Source: an uncultured Pelagibacteraceae bacterium
GTDB taxonomy: Bacteria > Pseudomonadota > Alphaproteobacteria > Pelagibacterales > Pelagibacteraceae
Direction: 5' to 3'
Length of the DNA stretch: 64,000 nt
NCBI GenBank assembly: GCA_902588625.1
Contig: CACIPU010000001.1
Span: 1-64,000, forward strand
Shown one piece after another: positions 2,045 through 9,800 of the stretch. Numbering within the stretch: the stretch's first letter is position 1; each line of letters begins with the position of its first letter. The notes beneath the pieces are model-generated. The model was not told the DNA's origin, did no database searches, and saw only the letters and a list, made by a program, of their open reading frames with translations. The position numbers were made by a program, and so were the translations under genes.

Positions 2045-3955
2045 ATGAAAAAAATAAAAACACTAATACTTATTTTAATTCTAACTTTTAACTTTGAACA
2101 AGTATTTGCCGCAGATGTACCGATAATTGTTATAGCACCAAGTAAAAAAGCACAATCTGTTTCAACAGTAGGTACCACTGTAACTGTCCTAGACGAAACA
2201 TTTTTTAAAAACTCAAATGAACTTTTTTTAGGAGATGCTTTATCAACTAACTCAACCAGCATTAATTTCTTTCAAAATGGTGGTCATGGACAAACTTCGG
2301 CTATTCAATTAAGAGGTATGCCAAAAAGATATTCAACAGTTTATATCGATGGTGTTAAAATGTCAGATCCAGCAAGTCCATCGAACGATTTTAATTTTAA
2401 TCATATTTTAACAAGCCAAATAGCTAGGGTAGAAATTTTAAAAGGTAATCAAAGTTCCGTTTATGGAAGTGGAGCTATAGGAGGAACCATAAATATTACA
2501 ACTAAAAAAGGTGAACCTGGTTTTCAAAAAAATATACAGTATAATAACGCCTCGCACGGAACTAATAATTTATCACTTTCATTATCTGGGGCAGATGACA
2601 ATGATGATTTTTATGTTGGTATAGAAAGATTTCAAACTGACGGGATGTCAGCAATGACTCATAATGATGAAGAAGATAGATATAGAAATAATACTATAGT
2701 TGCAAACTATGCACGTAAATTTTCTAAAAAAATAAAATTTGAAAGCAATCTAAGAGTTGCAGAAACCTATTCTCAGTATGACAAAGAAGTGGATACTGCT
2801 TCGGCAGATCATAGTGAAGAGCTAGATGCTCTGCAGTCTTCAGCAAACATATCTTTGGTTTATGATCCCAATAGTCAATTCACTAATAAATTTACACTAT
2901 CAAATGCTTATATCGAAAGAATTGTTGGGGAAACTCCAAGTAGCGGTAACACAGAACAAGATAATTATTATGGAACTAGATATGGGTTTATGTACTCAGG
3001 TAACTATAACTTTAATCTTGATAACAGTGTTGTGTTCGGATTTGAAAGAGAAGAGGATAAAATGGGATACAACAAAAATATGGTTGGTCGTAAAGATGAC
3101 CATGCATATGTAACATCAAGTTATTTTGATTATCAAAGCAGAGTTACTAATAATATTTATGCGACATTTGGATCAAGATTTGATGAACACAAACATGCAG
3201 GCAATGAAGATTCTCATAGAGCGACATTAGCTTATCTTTTTGATGACAAAACTACAAAGTTAAAAAGTTCTTATGGAACAGGATTTCGTTTTCCTTCTCT
3301 TTACGAACTTAATTGGCTTAACTCATTTAACTCTGGTATGACAGCTGAAACTAGCGAGAGCTTTGATTTTGGGATTGAAAAATCTTTTTCAAACTCCGGG
3401 TTAAGCTTTGATGCTACTTATTTTAACATAAGGTATATTGATACACTTGAGGGCTGGAAGGGTGCTGGAAAATGGGAAACAAATAACTTCCCTGGAGTAG
3501 TTAAATCTCAAGGTTTAGAACTTGATGCAAACTGGTTAAAAAGCGATCAGTTAAATTTTGGTTTGAATTATACTTATACATCCACTTATGATGGAGCAGA
3601 GCAAGACGATCCTGATCAGAATGCAAGTTATTTTATGACAGAATTGGTTAGAGTTCCTAGGCATTTAATTAATTTGAAAACAAATTTCAAAATTCCAGGT
3701 TATAAAGACTTAGATTTTTCTCTAAACACAAAGTTTTCAGATGATGCCAGAGATTATGGAAACGGAAACAGAACGTGGCGAGATGAAAGATTAGATGATT
3801 ATATAGTAAATGATTTATCGATAAAGTATAATTTATGGAATAGTTTTGATCTATTTTTGGATATAAACAATATTTTGGATGAAAAATATGAGACCGTTAG
3901 AGATTATTCTCAAATTGATAGATCATATAACTTTGGAATAAGACGCTCATACTAA
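2045..3955 (+). CDS. btuB: TonB-dependent vitamin B12 receptor, BtuB-like
   Basis: Signal peptide, plug domain (IQLRGMPKRYSTVYIDGVKMSDP, VEILKGNQSSVYGSGAIGGTINI), C-terminal aromatic beta-strand; B12 riboswitch upstream. Confidence 0.85.
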   Translation: MKKIKTLILILILTFNFEQVFAADVPIIVIAPSKKAQSVSTVGTTVTVLDETFFKNSNELFLGDALSTNSTSINFFQNGGHGQTSAIQLRGMPKRYSTVYIDGVKMSDPASPSNDFNFNHILTSQIARVEILKGNQSSVYGSGAIGGTINITTKKGEPGFQKNIQYNNASHGTNNLSLSLSGADDNDDFYVGIERFQTDGMSAMTHNDEEDRYRNNTIVANYARKFSKKIKFESNLRVAETYSQYDKEVDTASADHSEELDALQSSANISLVYDPNSQFTNKFTLSNAYIERIVGETPSSGNTEQDNYYGTRYGFMYSGNYNFNLDNSVVFGFEREEDKMGYNKNMVGRKDDHAYVTSSYFDYQSRVTNNIYATFGSRFDEHKHAGNEDSHRATLAYLFDDKTTKLKSSYGTGFRFPSLYELNWLNSFNSGMTAETSESFDFGIEKSFSNSGLSFDATYFNIRYIDTLEGWKGAGKWETNNFPGVVKSQGLELDANWLKSDQLNFGLNYTYTSTYDGAEQDDPDQNASYFMTELVRVPRHLINLKTNFKIPGYKDLDFSLNTKFSDDARDYGNGNRTWRDERLDDYIVNDLSIKYNLWNSFDLFLDINNILDEKYETVRDYSQIDRSYNFGIRRSY

Positions 3956-4686
3956 TGATAAATTCTCCGTGTAAAAATATTTGCACAATTGATCCTAAGA
4001 GTGAACTTTGTATAGGTTGTGGTCGTTCAAGAGATGAGATAGCAAATTGGCTAATTTTAACAGATAAACAAAAAAAAGACCTTTTAAACAGGTTAAAAAG
4101 TAAAAATAAAATTTTTACAATCTTTAATAATATGTTAAATAAAAGAATAATGAACAGTTTATACAATATTTCTAAAAAACAAATTTTTCTAATTGGTTTG
4201 ATATTAATATTAGCTTTAGCGAGATTAATACCTCATCCTTGGAATTTTACTCCAATTGTTGCAGTTGCTATATTGAGTGGTTACTTTTTTAAAAACATAT
4301 ACGCTTCCTTTGCAATAGTAATTATTTCTATGTTGATAGGAGATTTATTTTTAGGTTTTTATGAAAATATGATTTTTGTTTACCTGTCTCTGATATTGAT
4401 CTCATTTATTTTTTATAAATTTAGTAAAAAAATAAATTTTAAAAATTTATTTATATATGGATTTGTAGGTTCTGTTATATTTTTTGTTATTTCAAATTTT
4501 GGTGTTTGGGCTTTAGGAAGTCTTGGAGTTAATAATATTCCATACGAAAAAAATTTAAATGGTTTAATCGAATGCTTTGTTGTAGCGCTTCCATTTTTTC
4601 ATAACACTTTTTTGTCAACTCTGATATTTTCTTATTCAGCTATCTATATTTATAAGTCCTTACCCGCCTGGTCCAGCTCCAGATAA
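3955..4686 (+). CDS. DUF1289 N-terminal Cys domain fused to DUF6580-like membrane domain
   Basis: N-terminus SPCKNICTIDPKSELCIGCGRSRDEIANW (DUF1289); then RLIPHPWNFTPIVAVAILSGYFF...IGDLFLGFYENMIFVYLS...NFGVWALG (DUF6580-like, multi-TM). Overlaps the btuB stop. Confidence 0.7.
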   Translation: MINSPCKNICTIDPKSELCIGCGRSRDEIANWLILTDKQKKDLLNRLKSKNKIFTIFNNMLNKRIMNSLYNISKKQIFLIGLILILALARLIPHPWNFTPIVAVAILSGYFFKNIYASFAIVIISMLIGDLFLGFYENMIFVYLSLILISFIFYKFSKKINFKNLFIYGFVGSVIFFVISNFGVWALGSLGVNNIPYEKNLNGLIECFVVALPFFHNTFLSTLIFSYSAIYIYKSLPAWSSSR

Positions 4687-5084: not shown

Positions 5085-5162
5085 TTAAAATAGAATTGTT
5101 AAAATTAATATAAAAATTGTAATTAGAACGAAGAAAATAATTACAGCTTTTTGTAAACTCAT
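5085..5162 (-). CDS. Putative 25-aa single-TM microprotein MSLQKAVIIFFVLITIFILILTILF
   Basis: Hand translation; start ATGA overlaps the stop of the upstream 37-aa ORF; almost entirely hydrophobic. Confidence 0.45.
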   Translation of the reverse strand: MSLQKAVIIFFVLITIFILILTILF

Positions 5163-5272
5163 TTTTTATTCCTTTTTTCTCTTTTCAATTTTCTTTTTTC
5201 TTTAAAACTTAATCTCGATTTTTTCATTACGCTTGAATCTTTAAAGGACTTTCCACTATATCTTTTTGACAT
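5159..5272 (-). CDS. Putative 37-aa highly basic microprotein MSKRYSGKSFKDSSVMKKSRLSFKEKRKLKREKRNKK
   Basis: Hand translation; ORF below the track cut-off; stop/start overlap (ATGA) with the 25-aa ORF. Confidence 0.4.
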   Translation of the reverse strand: MSKRYSGKSFKDSSVMKKSRLSFKEKRKLKREKRNKK

Positions 5273-5499
5273 AAGTTTTTTTATTTTATTTTTAAAGTTA
5301 TTTTAATACTTTGTTGTTCTATATAATGATTTTAATACCTCAAAGCAATGAAAACGAATATTCCTTATAAATCAAATAATATTTAAGTAACAACCAGACC
5401 TAAAAAAAAACGTTTTTTTAATCAATATTTTCTTATATAAATAAAAAGTGCAAAACATAAATAACCCTTATAATATTTATTTAGATAAAAAATGAATTT

Positions 5500-6117
5500 A
5501 TGAATGAAATAAGTGATTTATTAATTTTAATTTTTGGCGGTTTACTATTAAGATATGCTCTAACCTTAACAGGACAGGGTTGGGCCAAATCCTATTCACA
5601 GACAATAGCTTTTATGGTTTTGCCTTTAATAACTTTTATTATTACAAAGACTATTGCAAATAATATTGCTTTATCACTTGGAATGATAGGCGCGTTATCA
5701 ATTGTACGTTTTAGACATCCCGTAAAAAGTGCTCTTGAATTAATTATGTACTTTGCACTTATTACGATAGGAATTGCAACAAGCGTAAGGACTAAATGGG
5801 CAATCCAACTAATTGTTGTTATAATTGTAATAATTGTACTATCTAAAATAATTCAAAATATTTTTAATAAAAAAGGGAAATCATTTTACAACACATCATT
5901 TAATGAAGGTACTAATCTAAATACGGTTGAGGTTTTTGCAAATGAAAAGATCGAATTAATAGAAAAAGATATTCATTTAGATTCTTCATATAATAATAAA
6001 CTTCAAAATGAATTTGTTTATAGACTTGCTTTTGAAAATAAAAAAGATTTGGAAATATTAAAAAAAAAAATTGAAGGTTTAAAAAGTATTACTAAAATAA
6101 ATATTAACTTTAACTAA
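5500..6117 (+). CDS. DUF4956 membrane protein
   Basis: N-terminal TM segments with GMIGALSIVRFRHPVKSALELIMYFALI, characteristic of DUF4956; C-terminal soluble domain. Confidence 0.75.
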   Translation: MNEISDLLILIFGGLLLRYALTLTGQGWAKSYSQTIAFMVLPLITFIITKTIANNIALSLGMIGALSIVRFRHPVKSALELIMYFALITIGIATSVRTKWAIQLIVVIIVIIVLSKIIQNIFNKKGKSFYNTSFNEGTNLNTVEVFANEKIELIEKDIHLDSSYNNKLQNEFVYRLAFENKKDLEILKKKIEGLKSITKININFN

Positions 6118-6121
6118 CAAA

Positions 6122-9109
6122 ATGAAAAAAAAATTATTTTTTTTTTTAGTTATTTTTTTATTCTCACAAAATGTAACTGCTAACACCACTTCAAACTGCG
6201 AAGACAAATTTAATCAAAATATATCTAATAATCTTTATGAAAAAAAGATTGAATCAATAGAAGTTACTTTTCAAAATTATAGAAACTGGATTAAAAACGG
6301 TATAAGAATTTTAATAAGTGAAATGAGAATTACTCCAGAAAAATTCAAAAGAAGATTTGCTGGGGATATAATTATAAAATACGAAGGAGATTTAAAGTGT
6401 AAATTACCTGCAAGAATAAGGCATAGTGGAGACTTTAAAGATCATATTCTTGTAAAGAAAAATTCTTTTATTCAAAGTTTAGATATCCATTTAAAAGCTG
6501 GAAACATAAAAGGAATCACAAAATTTAAATTATTTATAATAGAAGCAAAAGATAATTATGAAGATGAAGTTTTTATGCCAGTGTTATTACAAGAATTTAA
6601 ATATTTGTCACCTAGAACACACCTTATAAAAGCTAAAATTAATAATGTTGAAACTAACGTTCTTTTTCAAGAAAAAGCTAGCAAAGAATTACTTGAATTT
6701 AATCAAAGAAGAGATGGGCCAATTTTTGAAGGGCAAGAAAATTATATGTTTAACAAGAACACTCAAAGCGTATTACGTGATCAAAAAAGTCACGATGCTT
6801 CAGGATTTTATAATGCTATGAAGACAGGTGTTAAGGGACAATTATCTAAACAAATAAACACAAATTGGAATAACAAGGGGGAAAAATTCTCTTTTATTTC
6901 TCACCAAGCTATATCAAATTTAAATCTTACCTACCTCAATTATATTGAAGGATATCAGGATAAAAAAAATAATGTGAATTTTAATACCTATAACTTAAAT
7001 AATAAATTACTTGCATTTTATAATCCGGAAAACATTTTAAAACTTGAGATTTATAATTTATTAATATTTAGTTCAAATGGTTCACACGGATTAGCACCAT
7101 ATAACAGGAAATTTTATTGGAACTCTATGGAAAATTATTTTGAACCTATTAATTACGACTCCCAATTTAATATAGATGATCCAAATATATATTTTTACTT
7201 GCCATTTAATAATGAAACTTTAGAGGCTTTTAAAAAATTAGATATTTTATTGAGTAGAGTTGATATAAAAAAGTTACAGAAAAAAATAAATCAAAATGGA
7301 CTAAATTACAGTGAAAATAAAGTCAAAAATAAAATTAATAAAATTAGATTAAATTTAAAAACTATTAAATATAAATATGAAACATTTGATCCTGAGTTAT
7401 TAGATTATAATTTAAATTTTAATAATAATGAACAAATGTGGAAAAATTATGTTTTTTCCTTAAAAAAAATGAATGAAAAAATTTTTGTCGTATATAAACA
7501 AAAATCAAAACAAAAAAAAAACAATCAAATTAATTTAAATGAAAATAAATTTTATAAATGTGATGTTGAAAACCTTAATTGTTCACAAATAAAACTATCA
7601 AATAAACAACAAAATATATTAATCGAAGGTAACTTAAATTTTGCAGGTGAATACTACCAATATATTGGAAAAAATTTTGAAACAGATATTACCTCTAGTA
7701 TTTCAAAATTTGAAAAAGTTACTATAAGTAATTCAAATTTTTATTTTGATAAAAATATTAATTTTAATTTTGATAAAAAAAATAAAATATTGGATATATA
7801 TCAACTAAAATTTGGAGCTAGAGCTTTTTTTTATGAAGGAATAGTCGAAGATATTTATATCAACTTTCATGGCTATAACGAAAATTCAAATTATGATTTT
7901 ATTAACTATCCTATTGATGAAAATAATTTAACAGGATGCCTTTCTTTTATTAATTTAAAGATAAGAAAAATTTTAATTAATACTAAAGGTTCTAGCTGTG
8001 AGGATGCAATCAACCTAATAAATGTTAATGGCTCAATAAATGAAATAAATATTGAAAATTCTTTTAGTGATGGATTGGATGTTGATTTTTCGAGAGTGGA
8101 AATCAATAGTATAAAAATTGATTCAGCCCACAATGACTGTGTTGATTTTTCTGCTGGAAATTACAAAATAAATATATTGAAATTAAAAAATTGTGGAGAC
8201 AAAGCCCTTTCTGTTGGTGAAAAATCTTTTTTAACTTTAAATACAATTTTTGCAGAAAATGCAAATATTGGAATTGCATCTAAAGATGATTCAGAAGTTA
8301 AAATTATTGATGCAAATTTAAAAAATTTAAAAATTTGTGTTGCGGCATACAATAAAAAACAAGAATTTGGTGGTGGCTTTATATATATGAAATATATGAA
8401 TTGTGAAAAATATTATGTAGAAGCTGATTTAGATGTTTATTCAAAAATTATTAAAAATGAAAAAAGTTTGAAAAATTATAATTATGGCACGATTCACAAT
8501 TCTGAAAAAACTAAAATAGCAAAAGTTAATAACAAACAGATTAAAAAAAATTTAATAAAAGATTATGAAACTTTAAATCAAGATGGAACTGTCAATGCAG
8601 TTATAGAAATACCAGTAGGTTTAAAAGAAAAATGGGAAGTTTCAAAAATTAGTGGATCTTTATCACGTGAATTCTATATGGGGCAACCAAGAACAATAAA
8701 GTATAAGGCGTATCCGACAAATTATGGAATGATACCAAAGACTGTGTTGCCCACAAAAGTGGGAGGAGATGGAGATCCTTTAGATATACTCATTCTTGGA
8801 GATCCTTTAATTCAAGGCGACGTAGTCAAAGTTAAAATAATTGGAATGATAAAAATGAAAGATTTTGGAGAACAGGATGACAAAATAATAGCTGTTCAAA
8901 CTGAAGGTGTTTTTTCTAATTTTGATAATCTGGCTCAATTAAAAAGAGAGTATCCAGAAGTTATTGAAAAAATTAAAGTTTGGTTCACAAATTATAAAGG
9001 TAAAAATATCGTTAATTTTATTGATTATGGAACAAAGGAAGAAGCTCAAAATTTAATTTTCCTAAGTAAAAAATATTATAAAAGATTTGGTATAAAACCA
9101 AGGAGCTAA
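6122..9109 (+). CDS. Exported CotH-like + beta-helix-like + inorganic pyrophosphatase fusion protein
   Basis: Signal peptide (MKKKLFFFLVIFLFSQNVTA); CotH-like segment (ARIRHSGDFKDH...VLFQEKASKELLEF...YFEPINYDSQF); repetitive region 7900-8400; C-terminal family I PPase (VIEIPVG, YPTNYGMIP, GDGDPLDIL, MKDFGEQDDKIIAV, NYKGK). Confidence 0.75.
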   Translation: MKKKLFFFLVIFLFSQNVTANTTSNCEDKFNQNISNNLYEKKIESIEVTFQNYRNWIKNGIRILISEMRITPEKFKRRFAGDIIIKYEGDLKCKLPARIRHSGDFKDHILVKKNSFIQSLDIHLKAGNIKGITKFKLFIIEAKDNYEDEVFMPVLLQEFKYLSPRTHLIKAKINNVETNVLFQEKASKELLEFNQRRDGPIFEGQENYMFNKNTQSVLRDQKSHDASGFYNAMKTGVKGQLSKQINTNWNNKGEKFSFISHQAISNLNLTYLNYIEGYQDKKNNVNFNTYNLNNKLLAFYNPENILKLEIYNLLIFSSNGSHGLAPYNRKFYWNSMENYFEPINYDSQFNIDDPNIYFYLPFNNETLEAFKKLDILLSRVDIKKLQKKINQNGLNYSENKVKNKINKIRLNLKTIKYKYETFDPELLDYNLNFNNNEQMWKNYVFSLKKMNEKIFVVYKQKSKQKKNNQINLNENKFYKCDVENLNCSQIKLSNKQQNILIEGNLNFAGEYYQYIGKNFETDITSSISKFEKVTISNSNFYFDKNINFNFDKKNKILDIYQLKFGARAFFYEGIVEDIYINFHGYNENSNYDFINYPIDENNLTGCLSFINLKIRKILINTKGSSCEDAINLINVNGSINEINIENSFSDGLDVDFSRVEINSIKIDSAHNDCVDFSAGNYKINILKLKNCGDKALSVGEKSFLTLNTIFAENANIGIASKDDSEVKIIDANLKNLKICVAAYNKKQEFGGGFIYMKYMNCEKYYVEADLDVYSKIIKNEKSLKNYNYGTIHNSEKTKIAKVNNKQIKKNLIKDYETLNQDGTVNAVIEIPVGLKEKWEVSKISGSLSREFYMGQPRTIKYKAYPTNYGMIPKTVLPTKVGGDGDPLDILILGDPLIQGDVVKVKIIGMIKMKDFGEQDDKIIAVQTEGVFSNFDNLAQLKREYPEVIEKIKVWFTNYKGKNIVNFIDYGTKEEAQNLIFLSKKYYKRFGIKPRS

Positions 9110-9115
9110 ATTAAT

Positions 9116-9715
9116 ATGAGTTATAGAATAGAAGAAAAATATTTTATAGACAATTATCAAATTTTAGATTTTAAAAAATTTCTTTTTAGTAGGTCAGCTA
9201 AAAAAATATTTGATTCACGTGTAATTAAAAGTTTATATTTTGATAATAAGAAAAATGAAATGTACAAAGATTCAATTGAAGGAATAGTTCCAAGAAAGAA
9301 GATTAGAATAAGAAATTATCCAAATGAAAAAAATATTAAATTTTATCTAGAAACAAAAATTTCAAGCGTTGAAGGGCGTTATAAAAAACGTCAAGAAATA
9401 GATGAAAAAAATTTTCATAAATTAAATGAAATTGGCATTTTAGATGGACAGTATGGTCAATGTTTACCTAAAGTTTATGTTATTTATAATAGAGAATATT
9501 TTAAAATTGAGTCAGATAGATTTACGATAGATACGAATATACAATATCAGCTGTACTCCGATAATGTTGTAAGAAATGAATCTAGTTCAATAGTAGAACT
9601 TAAAACTTCAAATTTTAAAAATATTGATCGTTTATCAGAAAATTTTCCTTTTCATAAAACTAGATATTCAAAATATTGTAATGCAATAGATAAATGTTTT
9701 TACAAGAGTATATAA
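9116..9715 (+). CDS. VTC-domain (CYTH superfamily, polyphosphate polymerase-like) protein
   Basis: YRIEEKYFI, SLYFDNKKNEMYKDS, PRKKIRIRNYP, FYLETKISSVEGRYKKR, VYVIYNREYF, SSIVELKTS: basic/acidic strand pattern of VTC domains. Confidence 0.75.
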   Translation: MSYRIEEKYFIDNYQILDFKKFLFSRSAKKIFDSRVIKSLYFDNKKNEMYKDSIEGIVPRKKIRIRNYPNEKNIKFYLETKISSVEGRYKKRQEIDEKNFHKLNEIGILDGQYGQCLPKVYVIYNREYFKIESDRFTIDTNIQYQLYSDNVVRNESSSIVELKTSNFKNIDRLSENFPFHKTRYSKYCNAIDKCFYKSI

Positions 9716-9723
9716 AATAATTC

Positions 9724-9800
9724 TGGCGGGCCCTGAAGGACTTGAACCCTCAACCTCGGAGTCCGTAGCTCCGCGCTCTATCCAATTGAGCTAAGGGCCC
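9724..9800 (-). tRNA. tRNA-Arg (ACG), CCA encoded
   Basis: Reverse complement GGGCCCTTAGCTCAATTGGATAGAGCGCGGAGCTACGGACTCCGAGGTTGAGGGTTCAAGTCCTTCAGGGCCCGCCA folds as a cloverleaf; anticodon loop CTACGGA. Confidence 0.95.

Follow-up and report, generated by a model that had tools for sequence, protein, structure and literature searches.

Genes for CotH-like proteins, VTC-domain proteins ('polyphosphate polymerase') and DUF4956 membrane proteins have been described side by side in Gram-positive bacteria, where they are accessory, together with DUF4832 genes, to pel operons (PMC7112168). The eukaryotic VTC complex (Vtc1/Vtc3/Vtc4) likewise has a triphosphate tunnel metalloenzyme (TTM) domain with a small membrane protein alongside. 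In trypanosomes, a family-I inorganic pyrophosphatase (PPase), the acidocalcisomal soluble PPase (PDB: 5cuy, 5c5v, 5cux), lies across the membrane in a VTC polyphosphate system (PMC4263762), and the Bacillus spore-coat kinase CotH is known from crystal structures (PDB: 5jd9, 5jda). Here, we have analysed the first 64,000 nucleotides (the window) of contig CACIPU010000001.1 from an uncultured bacterium of the Pelagibacteraceae, the SAR11 family (assembly GCA_902588625.1; genome G000, 78% complete), and describe in it a cassette of DUF4956, CotH-like/beta-helix and VTC genes whose middle product carries a predicted exported PPase.

The cassette consists of three co-directional open reading frames (ORFs) on the + strand at 5500-9715, with intergenic gaps of 4 and 6 bp, which confirms the layout given in the initial annotation of this DNA. 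The domains named there (DUF4956, CotH-like, beta-helix, pyrophosphatase and VTC) are borne out by Pfam, sequence profiles, AlphaFold2 (AF2) models and Foldseek. The features are:

5500..6117, + strand: DUF4956 membrane protein, 205 aa (Pfam PF16316, E 1.5e-10; homologues; hydropathy)
6122..9109, + strand: exported fusion, 995 aa, of signal peptide, CotH-like domain, beta-helix and family-I pyrophosphatase (single ORF; AF2; same fusion in L065, L069, L090 and L098)
6122..6181, + strand: putative Sec-type signal peptide MKKKLFFFLVIFLFSQNVTA (judged by eye; AF2 helix 2-15)
6239..7471, + strand: CotH-like kinase-fold domain, aa ~40-450 (Foldseek to 5jd9/5jda, E 3.2e-9; alignments)
7709..8470, + strand: right-handed beta-helix, aa ~530-783, with an invariant D/E/K/S ladder (AF2; 60 homologues; Pfam Beta_helix in relatives)
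8597..9079, + strand: family-I inorganic pyrophosphatase domain (PF00719, E 1.5e-32; alignment; PDB matches; Foldseek)
9116..9715, + strand: VTC-domain protein, 199 aa, without signal peptide, triphosphate-tunnel fold of polyphosphate-polymerase type (PF09359, E 6.9e-24; profile match to Vtc4 3g3q; residue map)
5163..9723, no strand: inserted segment, approximate extent (empty site of genus mates)
9724..9800, - strand: tRNA-Arg(ACG), the insertion site (ARAGORN; Rfam; comparison with genus mates)

In contrast to the pel-associated genes, the window has no pel operon; the exported protein has a conserved beta-helix and, in the window, a fused PPase, and the setting is tRNA sites of streamlined marine genomes. 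The trypanosome PPase structures were detected by sequence search of the PDB, but that enzyme belongs to a eukaryotic organelle, has another fused region and is homologous via the PPase fold only. The three-gene set is thus already known, while an exported PPase within it, the exclusivity of this PPase in the family and mobility at tRNA sites are not described in the literature that we searched.

To our knowledge, VTC, CotH and DUF4956 genes co-occur across phyla without an agreed function. Among 85,462 species genomes scanned, 78 cassette loci were detected, mostly in Pelagibacteraceae single-cell genomes, and others in SAR86, SAR116, Prochlorococcus, Actinomarina, Roseobacter, Marinomonas, Saprospiraceae and a Woesearchaeon. 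Apart from loci truncated by a contig end, almost every locus has the order DUF4956, CotH/beta-helix, VTC. The same CotH/beta-helix/PPase fusion is found in four other Pelagibacteraceae genomes, at L065 (981 aa), L069 (1001 aa), L090 (901 aa, start missing) and L098 (932 aa), and their PPase domains are 45-58% identical to that of the window. In G017, a 99% complete genome in one contig, the tail of the CotH protein matches the PPase C-terminus (hidden Markov model E 1.3e-6), apparently what is left of a PPase domain that has since been lost. The fusion in the window, being one open frame that recurs elsewhere, is real and reflects neither chance nor sequencing error. That most homologues of the exported protein stop at about aa 790-815 without a PPase, and that G078 has a separate PPase gene in the same place, between CotH and VTC, would suit an assembly error or stop-codon read-through; we give this explanation next to no credence, since the recurrent fusions and the G017 tail rule it out.

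The PPase domain scores 106 bits against Pfam PF00719 (cut-off 23.5; E 1.7e-30, aa 826-986). In an alignment with E. coli PPase, for which we take E20, K29, E31, R43, Y55, D65, D67, D70, D97, D102, K104, Y141 and K142 as the reference residues, the catalytic residues are retained in each of the seven cassette PPases, and the matching columns are invariant or nearly so. The domain looks intact as a family-I enzyme, and activity is predicted. A PF00719 survey found a family-I PPase in only three of 197 Pelagibacteraceae genomes, and all three are inside the cassette: the fused one of the window and separate genes in G078 and, after VTC, in G110, both of which begin with a signal-peptide-like stretch. 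By a rough estimate, the chance that three randomly placed PPases would all land in cassettes is of the order of 1e-9 to 1e-10. As the fused PPase is the sole PF00719 match in G000 (E 1.5e-32), it could have been a housekeeping cytosolic pyrophosphatase attached by chance. This origin is very improbable, and we reject it from the family survey, the presence of HppA and the PPase tree. PF00719 is absent from 194 of the 197 family genomes, and the protein starts with a signal peptide. The proton-pumping HppA is encoded in G000 (C2:41427-43460) and in 26/26 near-complete family genomes sampled, so that cytosolic PPi (inorganic pyrophosphate) has its own enzyme. In the tree, the cassette PPases form a group with the PPase of an exported gammaproteobacterial ParB-like/PPase fusion (support 100/99), and housekeeping and viral PPases lie apart.

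That fusion, in G448 (L164:7976-9520), contains the nearest PPase relatives found. It is likewise exported and joined to another domain, but its partner is PF08857 (ParBc_2), and VTC and DUF4956 were not found in the 17 kb around its gene. Among 399 genomes of the phylum, the nearest match has an E-value of 3.5e-57 and the next 4e-29. Similar annotated 'ParB-like protein' genes are on Vibrio pelagius plasmids (NZ_CP090616.1, NZ_AP025505.1). A phage origin of the PPase was considered and rejected: there was no match in phage records, and PPases from viral contigs share about 30-40% identity and cluster on their own. Many of the viral contigs at L165-L238 have family-I pyrophosphatases, and those in the tree lie apart from the cassette PPases.

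The fused PPase domains cluster together in the PPase tree (89/87), whereas a single clade of the fused CotH proteins is rejected (approximately unbiased test, p 1e-77) and at least five changes are needed. The combination of a split CotH clade with grouped PPase domains suggests that the PPase has been moved, exchanged or lost repeatedly. In the neighbourhood survey, the PPase is fused in 5 of about 79 cassettes and is a separate gene in two more. The initial annotation had read the pyrophosphatase as a sign of chemistry that makes or consumes PPi or polyphosphate; from these comparisons the domain is best regarded as an accessory that has come and gone several times, outside the core.

The whole 995-aa protein was modelled by AF2 with 60 homologues at a mean predicted local distance difference test (pLDDT) score of 86.7 and a predicted template modelling (pTM) score of 0.79. 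The model starts with a helix at residues 2-15, followed by low confidence at 16-24, and has a low-confidence linker at aa 787-805 ahead of the PPase. The mature protein has 10 cysteines, most of them conserved, and several vary little or not at all in the window-type clade, in keeping with export. Outside the C-terminal PPase, Pfam gives no match in this protein.

The beta-helix is the best-conserved part of the exported protein, a rank missed by the initial annotation, which had listed the domain. It is modelled at a pLDDT of about 96, and Pfam Beta_helix matches relatives of the window protein. Across the 60 homologues there are 24 invariant columns, mostly in the beta-helix (D628, N631, D650, D653, D655, D672, D675, S677, D693, K694, S697, G699, E700, K721, D722, K745, K746 and E748). 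Positions 628, 650, 672, 693, 721 and 745 among them fall roughly one to each helix rung, so that a charged groove may run down one face. In relatives, this region matches PF12708, pectate-lyase/epimerase and carbohydrate-binding module (CBM) models.

As all of the best 50 Foldseek matches listed for the full model were PPases, the CotH region (aa 1-470) was modelled alone (pLDDT 88, pTM 0.88). The top match of this model in the PDB is B. cereus CotH (5jd9/5jda; E 3.2e-9, probability 1.00), and HipA-type kinases rank next. Structure prediction therefore supports the CotH fold, and a profile match to Vtc4 supports the VTC fold, both as the initial annotation had proposed. Pfam CotH (PF08757) gives no match over the cut-off for the window protein. 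In a sister clade of the same cassette, the sequence profile matches 5jd9 (E 1.4e-6) and 10 of 14 members match Pfam CotH, and hhalign aligns the CotH regions of the window-type and sister clades with 99.7% probability. The CotH residues D228 and D251 were assigned to aligned residues by their 23-residue spacing in 5jd9. The D251 equivalent, the metal-site Asp346 of the window protein, is Asp in 60/60 homologues. In contrast to Bacillus CotH, the window protein has His322 at the D228 position, where 55 of the 60 homologues have His and none has Asp; it also carries the C-terminal beta-helix and PPase, and there are no spores. Because the D228 equivalent is lost and D228Q abolishes CotH activity (PMC7821199), the CotH-like domain may be a pseudokinase or carry out different chemistry rather than act as a conventional kinase. 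A second, shorter CotH-like ORF (535 aa) lies directly upstream of the fused cassette at L069:3887-5494.

The VTC protein scores 85 bits against Pfam PF09359 (cut-off 23; E 6.9e-24). A single-sequence search of the PDB gave no match, and a profile was required to find Vtc4 (PDB: 3g3q; E 1.4e-11). We know of no demonstration of polyphosphate polymerase activity for these bacterial VTC proteins, for which it is a candidate activity. The initial annotation had staked its interpretation in part on the basic and acidic tunnel residues. The bacterial protein shares the TTM tunnel of Vtc4 and has equivalents of K200, R264, R266, K281, K294, R361 and R373 (K8, R64, R66, K81, K90, R126 and R135 in the window), of which K8, R64, R66, K81 and R126 are invariant in 34 sequences. 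R264 and R266, together with E426, are the residues changed to inactivate yeast Vtc4 (PMC9911596). E161 and S185-K186 are also invariant; the Vtc4 alignment ended before E426 and K458. In contrast to the eukaryotic complex, the bacterial set has no SPX domain, and RxExK replaces RxTxK in strand 1. E6 of this motif is kept and the other acidic position is Arg; the acidic patch of TTM hydrolases has been described as ExExK (PMC4641920).

The DUF4956 protein (Pfam PF16316, 41.5 bits, cut-off 30.6; E 1.5e-10) has about four hydrophobic segments in its first 124 aa, followed by a C-terminal domain. Sequence comparison gave no match between DUF4956 and Vtc1. All 33 homologues match PF16316, and a distant likeness to MgtC/SapB membrane proteins was noted, with 4/33 homologues matching MgtC and a paralogue matching NCBIfam MgtC/SapB (2e-4).

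Within the family, VTC is found in 33/197 genomes and CotH/beta-helix in 34/197, and 31 are shared (Fisher p 2e-30, with genome relatedness ignored); in the three CotH-only genomes the CotH match is at a contig edge. Copies in one genus have only about 35-47% identity. PPK1 is rarer in genomes with VTC (7/33 versus 51/107), also within the two best-sampled genera (odds ratio 0.21, Cochran-Mantel-Haenszel p 0.009), a negative association that is consistent, modestly, with overlapping roles. G000 itself has a second, unlike DUF4956/CotH-beta-helix/VTC cassette, without PPase, beside a tRNA-Ser gene (C2:77603-81635; L054:3604-7636).

In the window, the cassette occupies a tRNA-Arg site as a movable insert, and genus mates have this site empty. 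The 3' end of tRNA-Arg(ACG) faces the cassette at 9 bp. In the genus mates G104, G034, G112 and G016 (empty sites at L263, L268, L270 and L271), the distance from the 4HBT gene to tRNA-Arg is about 115-125 bp and there is no cassette. The site is an insertion hot spot. At the same site, G116 has about 5 kb of other cargo (L261:1033-6391), in which radical-SAM-like, metallo-beta-lactamase/rhodanese-like and YeeE-like ORFs were recognised by eye. Of 81 aligned positions, about 18 differ between the window tRNA-Arg and its counterpart at this site in genus mates, and the closest tRNA found, on another contig of G002, is 92% identical; the tRNA may have arrived with the cassette. Of 59 cassettes, 17 end no more than 170 bp away from a tRNA gene; with relatedness ignored, tRNA genes are about 20-fold denser there than in the rest of the flanks. 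No integrase was recognised beside the window cassette, and no convincing att-like direct repeats flank the insert, where only AT-rich matches were found. Neither the mobility at tRNA sites, nor the empty site, nor the lack of further family-I PPases among the family genomes was mentioned in the initial annotation.

What the cassette may do is suggested by comparison of sequences and structures, from which we infer the biochemistry. Our best explanation, in which we place somewhat less than even confidence, is that it carries out phosphate-anhydride chemistry across the inner membrane, with the PPase acting on PPi outside. VTC would build a polyphosphate-type chain from ATP in the cytosol, and DUF4956, by analogy with Vtc1/3/4 at the yeast vacuole, would couple the chain to the inner membrane or pass it through. 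The exported CotH-like/beta-helix protein would bind or use the chain in the periplasm or at the surface. The PPase on its flexible linker, comparable in placement to the trypanosome acidocalcisomal enzyme, would hydrolyse PPi or very short polyphosphate there to inorganic phosphate (Pi), and its action would pull the reaction forward and return Pi for uptake. Part of the earlier interpretation can be kept: the domains, the VTC residues, the exported PPase and the co-occurrence of cotH, VTC and DUF4956 genes (PMC7112168) all agree with it, and PPi chemistry outside the cytoplasm is a reasonable suggestion given an exported, intact-looking pyrophosphatase. Its view of CotH as a working protein kinase is not supported, as the D228-equivalent Asp is missing in 60/60 homologues despite the invariant D251 equivalent.

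The cassette supplies concrete genes for a question about phosphate in the periplasm. A large phosphate buffer is present in the periplasm of SAR11 and Prochlorococcus (PMC4525184, PMC7250820); bacteria are said not to make polyphosphate in the periplasm (PMC7250820). That the family's only family-I PPase is exported and cassette-bound is an independent hint of PPi or polyphosphate outside the inner membrane. It is conceivable, though we consider it unlikely, that in some oligotrophs of the surface ocean (SAR11, Prochlorococcus, SAR86, SAR116 and Actinomarina) a bacterial counterpart of the vacuolar VTC system loads polyphosphate into the periplasm and the exported PPase completes its breakdown to Pi. 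If so, the extracellular phosphate buffer measured in SAR11 and Prochlorococcus would owe part of its molecular basis to such loading; the cassette is confined to about one in six family genomes, too few for a general answer.

Several points weigh against phosphate-anhydride chemistry across the membrane. The CotH domain appears to be without its catalytic Asp, the PPase is present in a small minority of cassettes, and the bacterial VTC motif RxExK lies between RxTxK of Vtc4 and ExExK, so that polymerase and hydrolase would both fit the sequence. The PPK1 association is modest and comes from partly incomplete genomes, and the attractive link to the phosphate buffer is weakened by the patchy distribution of the cassette. 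PF12708 and CBM matches in relatives liken the beta-helix to glycan-processing enzymes, and with the pel-operon neighbours this likeness suggests that the substrate may be a glycan rather than polyphosphate. The main alternative, possible but less probable, is envelope glycan modification, in which the beta-helix would be an enzyme on surface polysaccharide or exopolysaccharide, CotH-like and VTC proteins would feed phosphoryl groups or regulate, the PPase would clear released PPi, and polyphosphate storage would be beside the point. The concentration of invariant columns about one rung apart in the beta-helix, the pectate-lyase/epimerase and carbohydrate-binding matches of relatives and the Gram-positive pel operons with cotH, polyphosphate-polymerase and DUF4956 genes (PMC7112168) would all suit this, as would the high divergence and patchy distribution typical of surface-variation genes. 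However, no glycosyltransferase or polymer synthase is found in or directly beside the window cassette, and glycan modification by itself leaves a VTC tunnel enzyme with Vtc4 residues unexplained.

The placement of cassettes at many tRNA genes, a site that is empty or holds other cargo in genus mates, the low identity of same-genus copies and the two unlike cassettes of G000 could also point to a variable-site accessory system, for phage defence or surface-receptor change, that uses phosphate-related folds. We regard this as doubtful: PADLOC defence models match none of the three cassette proteins, variable islands carry nutrient genes too, and exported, periplasmic parts are unusual for intracellular defence.

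Rfam RNA families and a promoter search gave nothing besides the tRNA. Next to the insert, a 25-codon ORF at 5085-5162 (- strand) encodes a small membrane peptide, MSLQKAVIIFFVLITIFILILTILF, and genus mates keep this ORF where their site is empty. An adjacent, very basic 37-codon ORF at 5159-5272 was not found at those sites. Further upstream, a single ORF at 3955-4686 of the window unites DUF1289 and DUF6580.

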